A DNA stretch of 42,661 nt, taken from Patescibacteria group bacterium (GTDB lineage: Bacteria; Patescibacteriota; Patescibacteriia; UBA1558; UBA10009). How positions within the stretch are numbered: the stretch's first letter is position 1; every line of letters begins with the position of its first letter. The position numbers and the translations under genes were made by a program. The DNA lies in contig JAHITV010000041.1 of NCBI GenBank assembly GCA_018817315.1, positions 1-42,661 on the forward strand, read 5' to 3'. The notes below the pieces were generated by a model that was given only the letters and a program-made list of their open reading frames with translations, did no database searches and was not told the DNA's origin. Below are positions 1 to 40,208 of the stretch, piece by piece.

Positions 1-88
1 AGGGTCGAAGTAGGACGGCGGAAGCTCATCGGATAAAAGTTACTCCGGGGATAACAGGCTGATCTCCTCCAATAGTCCACATAGACGA

Positions 89-132
<44 letters not shown>

Positions 133-163
133 GAGAAGCTCCCAAGGGTTTGGCTGTTCGCCA

Positions 164-207
<44 letters not shown>

Positions 208-1040
208 AGAATTTTATCTTTTCGTCCATAATTTATTCGTCAATAAACGAATATATCGATCGTGCTGTCTATAAATTCGGCTAAATGCTGGAAACTCTGG
301 TGCCCTCACAAGATGGAGAATAGAGGGTTGGAGAATCTCACACTACGTGATATAATATATCCGTAATAAAGTGTTGAGTGCAGACAATCAGCAGGGAAGG
401 CCTTATTTAGTAATTTATGCTTAATCCACATTATATTACTGGTTTTGTAGATGGTGAAGGTAGTTTTCATGTGGCTATTTATCGTGATAGTCAGATGAAA
501 TTTGGCATTAAAATTATTCCCGAATTCCATGTCAGTCAAAGAGAAAATTGTCAGAAGATACTTAAAGATTTGGTTCAATATTTTAAGTGCGGTTATCTGA
601 AGAAAAACCATGCAACAAAACCTAATGATAAAAATGTGGTTTATGTAGTACGTAATCGAGAGGATCTTTTAAAAAAGATTATTCCTTTTTTTGAGAAATA
701 TTTATTACAAACTCAAAAACGAGGCGATTTTGCTCTTTTTGCAAAAATCGTCCGTTTAATGGAAAGTGGTAGGCATTCTCATAAATCAGGAATACAAAAA
801 ATTCTCTCTTACGCCTATTTAATGAATCAAAAAGGAAAATATCGAAGAATTAAAATTACTTTATAAGGAACCCTCAGAGACTACACGCCGAACTCTGAAC
901 TATTAGTGGTTCAGAGAAGATATAGTCCGAACTCTATCCTTCAACAGAAGGACTTCGTCCTAATTCAGGACGTTGTGGCGACATAGAGAATCCTTTAAAA
1001 GGGATAGTATAAATTTTTTAATTTATATTTAACATTATTG
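208..1040 (+). mobile_element. Group I self-splicing intron in 23S rRNA
   Basis: An 833-bp insertion splits the conserved hairpin. The 5' splice site is fixed by P1: exon bases 201-207 (AGACAGU) pair with the internal guide 264-270 (GCUGUCU), with the expected U·G at the splice site. The intron ends in G at 1040 (omega G). Bases 258-262 can form a P10 helix with the 3' exon. Core elements are visible: a P-like segment near 283-297 (aaatgctggaaactc), a Q-like segment near 386-400, an R-like segment at 873-887 (ctcagagactacacg) and the canonical S element aagatatagtcc at 917-928, with a P8 hairpin between. The endonuclease gene lies between Q and R, so probably in the L6 loop, as in the chloroplast intron that encodes I-CreI. 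Splicing is inferred, not shown. Confidence 0.93.
417..866 (+). CDS. LAGLIDADG homing endonuclease (single motif)
   Basis: The 149-residue protein carries one LAGLIDADG motif at residues 6-17 (YITGFVDGEGSF), which supplies the helix at the dimer interface and the metal-binding acidic residue. One motif means it should act as a homodimer on a near-palindromic site, like I-CreI (163 residues). A basic body with FHVSQRENCQKIL fits the family's DNA-contacting strands. An in-frame TAA at 411 places the start at ATG 417; no clear Shine-Dalgarno is visible, which is common for ORFs inside introns. Its target should be the uninterrupted 23S gene around the insertion site, giving homing. No frameshift or stop is seen, so it may be active. 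Confidence 0.92.
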   Translation: MLNPHYITGFVDGEGSFHVAIYRDSQMKFGIKIIPEFHVSQRENCQKILKDLVQYFKCGYLKKNHATKPNDKNVVYVVRNREDLLKKIIPFFEKYLLQTQKRGDFALFAKIVRLMESGRHSHKSGIQKILSYAYLMNQKGKYRRIKITL

Positions 1041-1467
1041 TCGGTCTCCTATCCGCTACGGGCGTTGAATCTTGAGCAGGCCCTTCCCTAGTACGAGAGG
1101 ACCGGGAAGGACGAACCTCTAGTGTACCGGTTGTCATACCAATGGCATTGCCGGGTAGCTACGTTCGGTTTAGATAAACGCTGAAAGCATCTAAGCGTGA
1201 AGCTGTCTGCAAGATGAGGATTCGTTATTAGATTCCCGTAAGATGAACGGGTTAATAGGCGGCAGGTGTAAGTCCTGTAAGGGATTGAGCCGAGCCGTAC
1301 TAATTTATCAAGTAACCACCAATTTATTTAAGAATTAAGCAAGTCTTTTACTTAATTAATAAGAAAAAGTAGCTTTATGAATGATTTAAGAGGCGGTGTT
1401 AAATTGACCATGATGTTTTTAGCTTTAAGTTGTCTTATTATGGTTGTGTTTTTGCTGTCACCTTAGA

Positions 1468-7979: not shown

Positions 7980-7996
7980 GTCCCGCTAAGTGGGAC
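7980..7996. repeat. Intergenic palindrome with GCTAAG centre
   Basis: gtcccgctaagtgggac forms a hairpin just 3' of tRNA-Ala (minus strand). It belongs to a family also seen at 8103, 22639, 23941, 29014 and 35034. Confidence 0.6.
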
Positions 7997-8004
7997 AAAT
8001 CGAG

Positions 8005-8081
8005 TGGTGGAGATAGTGGGACTCGAACCCACGACCTACTGCATGCAAAGCAGTCGCTCTAGCCAACTGAGCTATATCCCC
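8005..8081 (-). tRNA. tRNA-Ala(UGC)
   Basis: The cloverleaf starts GGGGATATAGCTC and ends TATCTCCACCA with encoded CCA. Anticodon loop TTTGCAT gives anticodon TGC. The acceptor stem is complete with one G·U pair. Confidence 0.97.
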
Positions 8082-8102
8082 AAAATTTGTCTGTCCGTCG
8101 AA

Positions 8103-8117
8103 TCCCGCTTAGCGGGA
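8103..8117. repeat. Intergenic palindrome with GCTTAGC centre
   Basis: tcccgcttagcggga is a perfect palindrome around one central base, upstream of tRNA-Ala. It belongs to the same family as the palindrome at 7980. Confidence 0.65.
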
Positions 8118-8156
8118 GTAGGCGGAAACTACAGGCCCGTTTAGTTTTTTTCTTGA

Positions 8157-8565: not shown

Positions 8566-8636
8566 GCGAAACAGGTCTCGAACCTGTGACCTTACGGATG
8601 TAAACCGTACGCTCTAACCAACTGAGCTATTCGCCC
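8560..8636 (-). tRNA. tRNA-Val(UAC)
   Basis: Starts GGGCGAATAGCTC and ends TTCGCCCACCA with encoded CCA. Anticodon loop TTTACAT gives TAC. The spacer after it (8637-8759) contains a GC-rich block (8640-8700) with several nested palindromes and no gene. Confidence 0.97.
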
Positions 8637-8759
8637 TGGTGTCCAGGGCGCGGCAAGTCCCGCCCTGCTCGCCGCGAGCGGCAGCGAGAGGCGGGCCAGG
8701 GAACCCGCACACTTAAAAATAAATTCATACCTTAACCCACTATTTGCCTTATCAAAGGA

Positions 8760-38614: not shown

Positions 38615-39472
38615 ATGGCCAAAGACATTAAATCATTATTGGAAAAATTTTTAAAAGAGTTACGGAATAAAAAAAAGCTTTCACTTGCCACTGTCAATAA
38701 CTACACTTTTTATTTAAAAAGATTTTTGATTTTTGGCAAGATAACTAACATCAATCAGCTTAGCAAGGAAAAAATCAAAGCTTTTGTTGATCATTTAAAT
38801 CAACCATCAGGTAAAAATAAAGTCTTGAATGCAGCTACGCAAAATTACCATTTAATTGCTTTAAGGTCATTTTTAAAATTTTTAACAAACAAGGGTTTTA
38901 AAGTCATCCCGGCAGAAAACATTCGTTTAAATAAAACAAGGCCCAAAATCTATCCTTTACCTGACTTGGAGAAAATTTTAACTTTACCTCTTAAAACAAA
39001 AAATACAGCAATTATTAAATTAAGAGATGAAGCTATTTTAGAACTTTTATTGACGACCGGACTTAAAGTTTCGGAACTGGTTAATTTAAAAGTTGCTTCT
39101 TTGGATTTTAAAAAAGGACAATTAAAGATTAGTTTAAAAAAATCCCAAAGCAGAAAAGTGCCGTTGGATAATCAATGTCAGTATTCACTTAAACAGTATT
39201 TAGCCAGCCGAAAAGAGACCGCAGATTTTTTGTTTATTAGTCACGACAGAGCCTGCCAAAAAAGAAGCAACACTGAACAGAAATTAACTCCCAGATCAGT
39301 TCAAAGATTAGTAAAAAAATATACTAAAATGGCTGAATTAAGTGAGCAGATCACTCCTCAAACTTTTCGGCGTTTCTATATCAGTTCGCTTCTGTCAAAA
39401 AACTCTGATTTGAAAAATATTCAGGATAAACTAGGACATGCTTCTGTTAATATTATTAAGATGTATAAATGA
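38615..39472 (+). CDS. Tyrosine recombinase (XerC/D-like) with altered active site
   Basis: The 285-residue protein has a SAM-like core-binding N-domain (residues 5-90) and a catalytic domain. Family members need R-K-H-R-H-Y. Here box I reads TTGLKVSEL (Lys for the first Arg), the beta-hairpin Lys is in KSQSRKVPL, the HxxR motif reads TPQTFRR (Gln for His, Arg kept), and LGHAS and the MYK tyrosine are present. The protein stops one residue after the Tyr, so the last helix that swaps between protomers is gone. It may be inactive or specialised. It sits just before a disrupted tRNA-Arg and a GIY-YIG gene. Confidence 0.85.
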   Translation: MAKDIKSLLEKFLKELRNKKKLSLATVNNYTFYLKRFLIFGKITNINQLSKEKIKAFVDHLNQPSGKNKVLNAATQNYHLIALRSFLKFLTNKGFKVIPAENIRLNKTRPKIYPLPDLEKILTLPLKTKNTAIIKLRDEAILELLLTTGLKVSELVNLKVASLDFKKGQLKISLKKSQSRKVPLDNQCQYSLKQYLASRKETADFLFISHDRACQKRSNTEQKLTPRSVQRLVKKYTKMAELSEQITPQTFRRFYISSLLSKNSDLKNIQDKLGHASVNIIKMYK

Positions 39473-39488
39473 AAAATTATTTTTTTTC

Positions 39489-39517
39489 TTGACTTCTTAG
39501 TTTATTAATGGTATTTT
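39489..39517 (+). promoter_or_regulatory. Promoter in front of the disrupted tRNA-Arg
   Basis: TTGACT (39489-39494), 17-bp spacer, TATTTT (39512-39517). It faces the broken tRNA copy; no equivalent is seen directly before the intact copy. Confidence 0.6.
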
Positions 39518-39567
39518 ATTCAGGATTTTAAAATATGCCTCGATAGTTCCCGCCTAATTCATCTGAG

Positions 39568-39688
39568 GCCCTGTTAGTTCAACGGACCCGCCCGACTGCC
39601 TTGCGGCAGCAAGGCGGGCGCGGTAGAACAACGGCCTTCCCCGCTATTCAGCGGGCAAGTAAGCCGTGGATCAAGGTTCGATTCCTTG
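39568..39688 (+). pseudogene. tRNA-Arg(UCU) copy interrupted by two palindromes
   Basis: Aligned with the intact gene at 40023-40097, this copy carries a 37-base insert in the D-loop (39587-39623; stems cgccc/gggcg and gccttgc/gcaaggc) and a 20-base insert inside the anticodon (39640-39659; cccgct-attc-agcggg-caag, between TC and T). The T-arm is intact (caaggttcgattccttg), but the acceptor 3' strand and CCA are replaced by AT-rich DNA. It cannot give a normal tRNA. A promoter is present upstream. Confidence 0.88.
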
Positions 39689-39720
39689 TTATTTATATTA
39701 ATAATTAAAGAAAAGCGATT

Positions 39721-39984
39721 ATGTACTATATTTACATTCTTTTTAGTCTAAAAGACAAGAAATTTTATATTGGTTATACTGCTGATTTAAAAATAAAATT
39801 AATAGAGCATAAACAAGGTAAAGTTAAATCAACTAGATACCGATTGCCAATAAAATTGTTGTGTTATGAAGTTTACGGTTATAAAATAGAAGCAATGAAA
39901 CGAGAAAAGTTTTTAAAAAGCAGTGATGGTAAAAAAGATTTAAGGAGAAGGTTAACAGTGAGTTTAGGTAGTTTAAATTGTTAG
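39721..39984 (+). CDS. GIY-YIG endonuclease (URI/YhbQ-like)
   Basis: The 87-residue protein is a minimal GIY-YIG domain: YIYILFSLKDKKFYIGYTAD carries the two short motifs (YIY and YIG), followed by the EHKQGKVKSTRYRLP region with the conserved Arg and the Glu in EVYGYKIEAMKREKFLK, which holds the catalytic metal. Stand-alone proteins of this type are numerous in CPR genomes and may act as structure-specific or mobile nucleases. It sits between the two tRNA-Arg copies and thus may have come with the duplication. Confidence 0.9.
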   Translation: MYYIYILFSLKDKKFYIGYTADLKIKLIEHKQGKVKSTRYRLPIKLLCYEVYGYKIEAMKREKFLKSSDGKKDLRRRLTVSLGSLNC

Positions 39985-40022
39985 TTATTTTATTTTAATA
40001 GTTTCCGCCTAATTCGCCTGAG

Positions 40023-40097
40023 GCCCTGGTAGTTCAACGGATAGAACAACGGCCTTCTAAGCCGTAGATCAAGGTTCGATTCCTTGCCAGGGTACCA
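40023..40097 (+). tRNA. tRNA-Arg(UCU)
   Basis: Starts GCCCTGGTAGTTC and ends CCAGGGTACCA with CCA encoded and a G·U first pair. Anticodon loop CTTCTAA gives TCT, reading AGA. An inverted repeat flanks the gene (ccgcctaattcg before, cgaattaggcgg after), which could extend the precursor stem. Confidence 0.95.
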
Positions 40098-40208
40098 GAC
40101 GAATTAGGCGGATAGATAATTCTGCGTTACTAAATAACAAGGAGTAAAAATTTTTAAATAGAGCACTATATACTGGATTATTTTTATATTTTATATAAAT
40201 ATAACAAC

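Follow-up and report, generated by a model that had tools for sequence, protein, structure and literature searches.

Organization of the tRNA-Arg locus

Towards the end of the window, the whole stretch of 42,661 nucleotides of patescibacterial DNA that was analysed, a gene for a free-standing GIY-YIG nuclease of 87 amino acids (39721-39984, forward strand; PF01541, E = 3.8e-13) is situated between two copies of a tRNA-Arg(UCU) gene. With the intact gene as a BLAST query against the whole genome, a single full copy was retrieved at 40023-40097 on the forward strand, the only tRNA-Arg(UCU) of this genome and the only copy at the locus reported by ARAGORN, and the left copy was returned as exactly three collinear forward-strand pieces comprising tRNA nucleotides 1-19 (39568-39586, 95% identity with the intact copy), 20-35 (39624-39639, 100%) and 36-64 (39660-39688, 97%). 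Two hairpin inserts on the same strand break this copy, one of 37 nt in the D-loop (39587-39623) and one of 20 nt in the anticodon loop between nucleotides 35 and 36 (39640-39659; CCCGCTATTCAGCGGG followed by CAAG), and the copy, whose last piece stops at the 3′ T-stem strand, is without the acceptor 3′ strand. A direct repeat of 91% identity (39543-39586 / 39998-40041) takes in, besides the start of the tRNA, 25 nt in front of it, namely a duplicated leader or left palindrome arm 5′ of the broken copy (39543-39567, forward strand) which corresponds to 39998-40022. The original prediction, made from the letters of the DNA, had described such a repeat of the tRNA-Arg region around the GIY-YIG gene with a split left and an intact right copy, and the BLAST pieces confirm the split and both inserts to the base.

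The promoter of the tRNA-Arg gene, TTGACT-17-TATTTT (39489-39517, forward strand), had rightly been placed 5′ of the broken copy and is now 505 nt away from the intact tRNA. The latter is enclosed by a perfect 13-nt inverted repeat with the forward-strand arms TCCGCCTAATTCG (40004-40016) and CGAATTAGGCGGA (40100-40112), a feature absent from the original prediction. Similar arms surround the tRNA-Arg of locus L225 on both sides, and a similar right arm occurs at L034. Genome-wide, CCGCCTAATTC, which represents the window's exact palindrome arms, was found at this locus only, by which a palindrome family with these exact arms dispersed over the genome was discarded. Another 13-nt inverted repeat (39683-39695 / 40131-40143) may be due to chance, equally long AT-rich repeats being present nearby.

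On the upstream side a Xer-like gene (38615-39472) adjoins the broken copy; it is a real gene which, as had been expected of an altered tyrosine recombinase, carries Lys in place of the catalytic Arg-I and Gln in place of His-II and terminates directly behind the catalytic Tyr. The Xer copy of L040, from the same family, is degenerate too, and both residues are kept in most relatives. The order Xer, tRNA-Arg(UCU) and, often, tRNA-His is conserved in many relatives without a GIY-YIG gene at that place, so that the Xer gene is a neighbour by ancestral synteny, and its reading as part of the module or as its mobilizer was rejected. A tRNA-integrated element of the tyrosine integrase type was rejected as well, because the Xer gene is syntenic in insert-free genomes and the tRNA piece that stays behind comes from the 5′ side, not from the 3′ end. 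A self-splicing group I intron in the tRNA was dismissed on the ground that no intron family matched at the locus and that the GIY-YIG gene separates two repeats of the tRNA and does not interrupt a continuous one.

Empty sites with one tRNA-Arg gene, as the original prediction anticipated, are present in relatives in the arrangement Xer-promoter-tRNA-Arg, where TTGACT-17-TAnnnT precedes the tRNA with its -10 box at a distance of 15 nt (L051) or 36 nt (L037), and several further single-copy tRNA-Arg loci of relatives are empty too. Empty and occupied alleles of one site, a hallmark of homing endonucleases, are thus found between genera only, with no same-species pair among them. Neither two intact tandem tRNA-Arg genes in relatives nor an assembly error behind the inserts was found.

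The GIY-YIG protein and its relatives

The 32 nt between the end of the broken copy and the GIY-YIG reading frame end in AAAGAAAAGCGATT (39707-39720, forward strand), which stands directly before the ATG and represents a motif common to other tRNA-type GIY-YIG genes; A[AG]AAAAG[CT]GA occurs in 9 of 115 upstream regions against 0.07 expected. An AlphaFold model of the protein (pLDDT 95) found its best PDB match in the UPF0213 structure 1zg2 (E 4e-4), followed by Slx1 and I-TevI as weak matches (E 0.02 or worse). Fold and motif of the GIY-YIG superfamily are present and E62 is retained, but the pair of catalytic Arg and Glu is incomplete, as Lys (K26) occupies position 26, where 33 aligned relatives almost invariably have Arg. 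By analogy with R27 of I-TevI, this Arg is taken to be catalytic. Judged from this substitution, the nuclease encoded in the window may be weakened or inactive, and the protein is a UPF0213-like member of the GIY-YIG superfamily fold whose activity is doubtful. Proteins of the tRNA-linked kind, with approximately 80-90 amino acids, consist essentially of the bare catalytic domain and possess no separate DNA-binding domain.

The window's own genome holds seven to nine GIY-YIG matches, depending on the search; of the nine, one resides inside a 583-codon frame and six are located within 160 bp of a tRNA. In a tree of 112 proteins, whose short sequences give weak resolution, the window's protein belongs to a group of 17 members, all tRNA-linked, which sit at Ser, Gln, Asp, Leu, Thr, Glu and Arg tRNAs, and this GIY-YIG lineage therefore appears to move between tRNA genes. 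The label of tRNA linkage is itself clustered on the tree (20 changes versus 34 in shuffles; 0 of 500 shuffles as low).

A second GIY-YIG group, characterized by a CCCGTTAG motif 5′ of the gene, has almost no members linked to tRNAs. Immediately 5′ of the ATG, a CACCCCGTTAGA-like sequence was observed in this group at L069, L073, L078, L083, L114, L122, L126, L138, L140-L142, L154, L162, L163 and L166, and also at L001, where inverted ATCCCGTTAGAG / CTCTAACGGGAT are present on both sides of the GIY-YIG gene. The group is possibly another element with repeats of its own.

Association with tRNA genes

A scan of approximately 85,000 species genomes yielded 80 GIY-YIG relatives, picked for their resemblance to the window's protein, whose hosts are mostly Patescibacteria, besides Omnitrophota, Cloacimonadota, Bacteroidota and others. 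In 49 of the 80, a tRNA is found within 500 bp of the GIY-YIG gene, and all 59 tRNAs at this distance are encoded on the strand of the gene; tRNA density amounts to 1.41 per kb at 0-250 bp upstream and 1.07 per kb at 0-250 bp downstream versus 0.00-0.07 per kb at 2-6 kb. Since these relatives had been selected by similarity, 40 further GIY-YIG matches were taken without regard to context, among which 30 have a tRNA within 500 bp, again on the same strand (54 of 54 tRNAs). In both samples together, the tRNAs closer than 500 bp are all encoded on the strand of the gene (113 of 113); these counts are not fully independent, as tandem tRNAs were counted several times and related genomes are included. 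The gene, outside any intron and adjoining its putative target gene, has the position of a homing endonuclease gene. In a viral collection a single relative was encountered, a GIY-YIG gene 80 bp before a tRNA-Lys (L210, 144-529); there it is therefore not mainly a phage gene.

Partial tRNA copies and hairpins

Among 140 distinct loci, 55 have a tRNA within 150 bp behind the GIY-YIG gene, and at 40 of these a 5′ piece of the same tRNA, usually broken by hairpins, is present before the gene, which provides the other pairs of broken tRNA and GIY-YIG gene to be expected from the original prediction; the 15 others of this gene-then-tRNA orientation have no partial copy above the threshold used. At the tRNA-Ser of L096, 66 identical nucleotides are followed by a hairpin pair in the T-loop, by AATCTC and then by the gene, and further examples of partial copies are found at L093, L094, L105, L115, L116, L072, L079, L085, L088 and L089. 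A mirror form, with an intact tRNA, the gene and then a 3′ tRNA piece, exists at L090, L164 and L169, with hairpins in L090 and L169, and at L108 and L139 hairpins are positioned directly behind the 3′ end of the tRNA. Partial copies accompany 19 of 60 GIY-linked tRNAs versus 2 of 31 distant tRNAs (p = 0.005).

The duplication starts at nucleotide 1 of the mature tRNA: in 27 aligned cases the match is 0.96-1.0 at +1 to +8 and decreases upstream to 0.78 (-1), 0.63 (-2) and then 0.56 and 0.41, with background from about -4. The ends of the copies cluster, by inspection and with no statistic attached, at the closing of the hairpin-bearing arm, namely at nucleotide 25 (L074, L079, L089), at 39-45 (L072, L085, L088) and at 60-64 (L091, L115, L116 and the window), and the partial copy often ends at arm closure 15-25 nt before the ATG. 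This proximity to the start codon, together with a stable fold of the window's left copy into extended D and anticodon arms plus the T arm (z = -2.8; 1 of 200 shuffles equally good), would suit the alternative named in the original prediction, a structured RNA of tRNA-like kind with extended arms, which might function as a regulatory leader of the nuclease gene or be excised from the transcript. Such a role is nevertheless very improbable, as the affected arm and the sequence and number of the hairpins vary between loci with no single RNA conserved, ordinary insertion accounts for the position, and no match to a known RNA family was obtained.

Of 40 hairpin inserts, 28 are located in a tRNA loop against 31% expected (p = 4.5e-7); part of the hairpin sites had been assigned to the final base of the match, and inspection puts a few of the nominal non-loop cases (L091, L115) in the T-loop. 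Within the last 100 bp ahead of the gene, tandem hairpin pairs have a density of 3.0 per kb, versus about 0.1 per kb beyond 800 bp, and single GC-rich hairpins amount to about 0.06 per kb in a sample of the window's own genome (about a quarter of it). At L093, L094 and L096 hairpins are present in the loops of the partial copy though copy and intact tRNA are identical over 50-71 nt, and hairpin gain therefore looks tied to the insertion process, against the earlier proposal that the spare copy took up its palindromes afterwards.

These features also bear on the possibility that the GIY-YIG genes are host genes which gather beside tRNAs as tolerant intergenic sites, with the copies and hairpins as later debris. 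Neighbourhoods of tRNAs are general landing sites, and the altered catalytic site of the window's enzyme would be compatible with such an origin. The single strand shared by all of the near tRNAs (clusters counted several times), the duplication of the very same tRNA from nucleotide 1 and the hairpins in its loops, however, argue against it, and the absence of tRNA linkage from the GIY-YIG group with the alternative motif indicates that the small size of a gene does not by itself entail linkage, so that this already disfavoured explanation has a very low probability.

A more serious competitor arises from the hairpins themselves. Hairpin-broken tRNA-Arg copies exist without a GIY-YIG gene at the locus in nine relatives (L031, L040, L043, L050, L034, L223, L215, L228, L221), and at L225 (approximately 1446-1631) a complete tRNA-Arg is split in the anticodon loop at CTTC^TAAG, the site of the window's second hairpin, by a palindrome which encloses another intact tRNA-Arg(UCU), with L034 and L050 being similar. 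Hairpins may therefore be separate elements of their own. The mobile agent could then be a palindromic element that inserts into tRNA loops, at times carries an entire tRNA gene in its own loop and supplies a substitute tRNA, with the GIY-YIG gene as an occasional passenger or helper, and the similar palindrome arms around the window's intact tRNA agree with this. The approximately 30-fold higher density of hairpin pairs just before GIY-YIG genes than elsewhere and the more frequent partial copies beside GIY-linked tRNAs weigh against the hairpin as agent, which we consider unlikely, though still worth keeping in mind.

Two observations on hairpins stand by themselves. In L217 and L223, which represent two genera, nearly the same hairpin pair (TCCCGCCTGTGRCGGGACCCCGCCAAAGCGCTTTGCGCGTCGGC) occupies the same D-arm site of a broken tRNA-Arg, each broken copy matching the tRNA of its own genome. 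In the window, GC-rich hairpins are also found beside tRNA-Ala and tRNA-Val without a GIY-YIG gene (7980-8120 and 8631-8700).

Relation to known systems

Among the open-access full texts searched, no report of this layout in bacteria was found. SegB of T-even phages is the best precedent for the mechanism of the nuclease, being likewise a free-standing GIY-YIG homing endonuclease encoded beside tRNA genes, which cuts within these genes at the motif RAWTSGAAC and drives tandem amplification of a tRNA segment (PMC13096335). The motif reads as the complement of the T-arm. SegB is phage-borne whereas the genes described here are chromosomal, a hairpin-broken partial tRNA or an insertion between promoter and tRNA does not figure in the part of its account consulted (PMC13096335), and, compared with SegB as portrayed there, the proteins addressed here are essentially bare catalytic domains of approximately 80-90 amino acids.

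A precedent for the survival of the target gene is provided by mobile open reading frames of fungal mitochondria with duplicated gene ends, such as those in Allomyces atp6 and Glomus atp6, atp9, cox2 and nad3 (PMC3630166). In both cases an endonuclease reading frame resides in an essential gene and a duplicated piece of the target keeps one functional version of it, as is the case at the window's locus. The fungal elements, however, concern protein genes, 3′ pieces and mostly LAGLIDADG enzymes, and a foreign piece replaces the native gene end, whereas here tRNA genes are affected and a 5′ piece broken by hairpins is left behind. No foreign piece is apparent at the window's locus, the two copies being 95-100% alike piece by piece; a dissimilar inner tRNA was seen as an exception at L225 and L050.

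Short GC-rich hairpins thought to be mobile are known from fungal mitochondria as double-hairpin elements and GC clusters (PMC4478555 and references therein). The hairpins considered here, by contrast, belong to bacteria, where they go with a nuclease gene and with the loops of a partially copied tRNA. Palindromes and a nuclease-type gene are likewise combined in REP sequences and their RAYT transposases. RAYTs are, however, HUH-type transposases and not GIY-YIG enzymes, and the elements of the window's kind differ further by their site in tRNA loops and by few copies per genome.

In CPR bacteria, GIY-YIG insertions in rRNA genes have been reported, with homing being doubted by the authors (PMC11270868). 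The organism group is the same, and a GIY-YIG gene is likewise found in a stable-RNA gene outside introns, but those insertions are sparse and concern rRNA genes, and the term 'tRNA gene' does not appear in that paper (PMC11270868). Apart from the tRNA-Arg locus, the 23S rRNA gene of the window (1-1317) contains an insert of approximately 800 bp with a reading frame (417-866) for a LAGLIDADG endonuclease (PF00961, E = 4.6e-24), to which no Rfam intron family could be assigned above the cut-off.

A probable mobile element family in tRNA genes

With a probability of roughly 60%, the locus belongs to a widespread family of small mobile elements which insert into tRNA genes and have a free-standing GIY-YIG nuclease as their core. 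They look like selfish elements whose entry into a tRNA gene spares the life of the host. That a small module has duplicated part of its tRNA target and kept one functional tRNA, the core of the original prediction, has strong support from dozens of like loci and from the empty sites in relatives. Position and strand of the insertion, the duplication, the hairpins and the empty sites are borne out by the comparison of sequences between loci, and from them we infer the mechanism of insertion and the nuclease as its agent.

The element is seated between the tRNA's own promoter and the intact tRNA, with the 5′ partial copy, in which one or two palindromic hairpins occupy a tRNA loop, left behind the promoter. 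The nuclease would cut the tRNA gene, possibly as its cruciform, a proposal based on the lack of a separate DNA-binding domain and on a fold resembling Slx1, which cuts branched DNA. The tRNA might then be duplicated from nucleotide 1 to the end of an arm, either through staggered nicks or through repair of a break, and by settling between the copies the element would leave one functional tRNA. Transcription from the tRNA promoter would place tRNA and nuclease on one transcript, from which they could be separated by RNase P, while the hairpins might spoil the left copy as a target, a recombination partner or a tRNA-like competitor. As the duplication is bounded by tRNA nucleotide 1 and an arm end, it suggests that structure rather than sequence sets the break points; the missing DNA-binding domain and the Slx1-like fold of the model agree with this, neither being proof. 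The intact right copy still holds any target within the tRNA, and self-immunity is therefore unexplained by the model.

The locus is accordingly filed with the free-standing, homing-like GIY-YIG elements, and there is a real chance that it belongs to a class of its own. Such a new class of bacterial mobile elements, which we propose tentatively, would combine a minimal structure-selective GIY-YIG nuclease with palindromic hairpins, recognize the cloverleaf (cruciform) of tRNA genes, duplicate nucleotide 1 to an arm end and place itself under the control of the tRNA promoter. With one working tRNA left intact or supplied, tRNA genes of many specificities would be open to it even where they are essential and present as single copies.

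Patescibacteria commonly encode small GIY-YIG proteins, for which an explanation is usually missing; the linkage now makes a role as tRNA-gene parasites likely for the majority of the group to which the window's protein is related. It also accounts for hairpin-broken pseudo-tRNAs in genomes of very small size and illustrates a way for an element into the essential single-copy tRNA genes of cells with low redundancy. If the enzyme indeed reads the structure of the tRNA gene and not its sequence, this would constitute a new mode of target choice.
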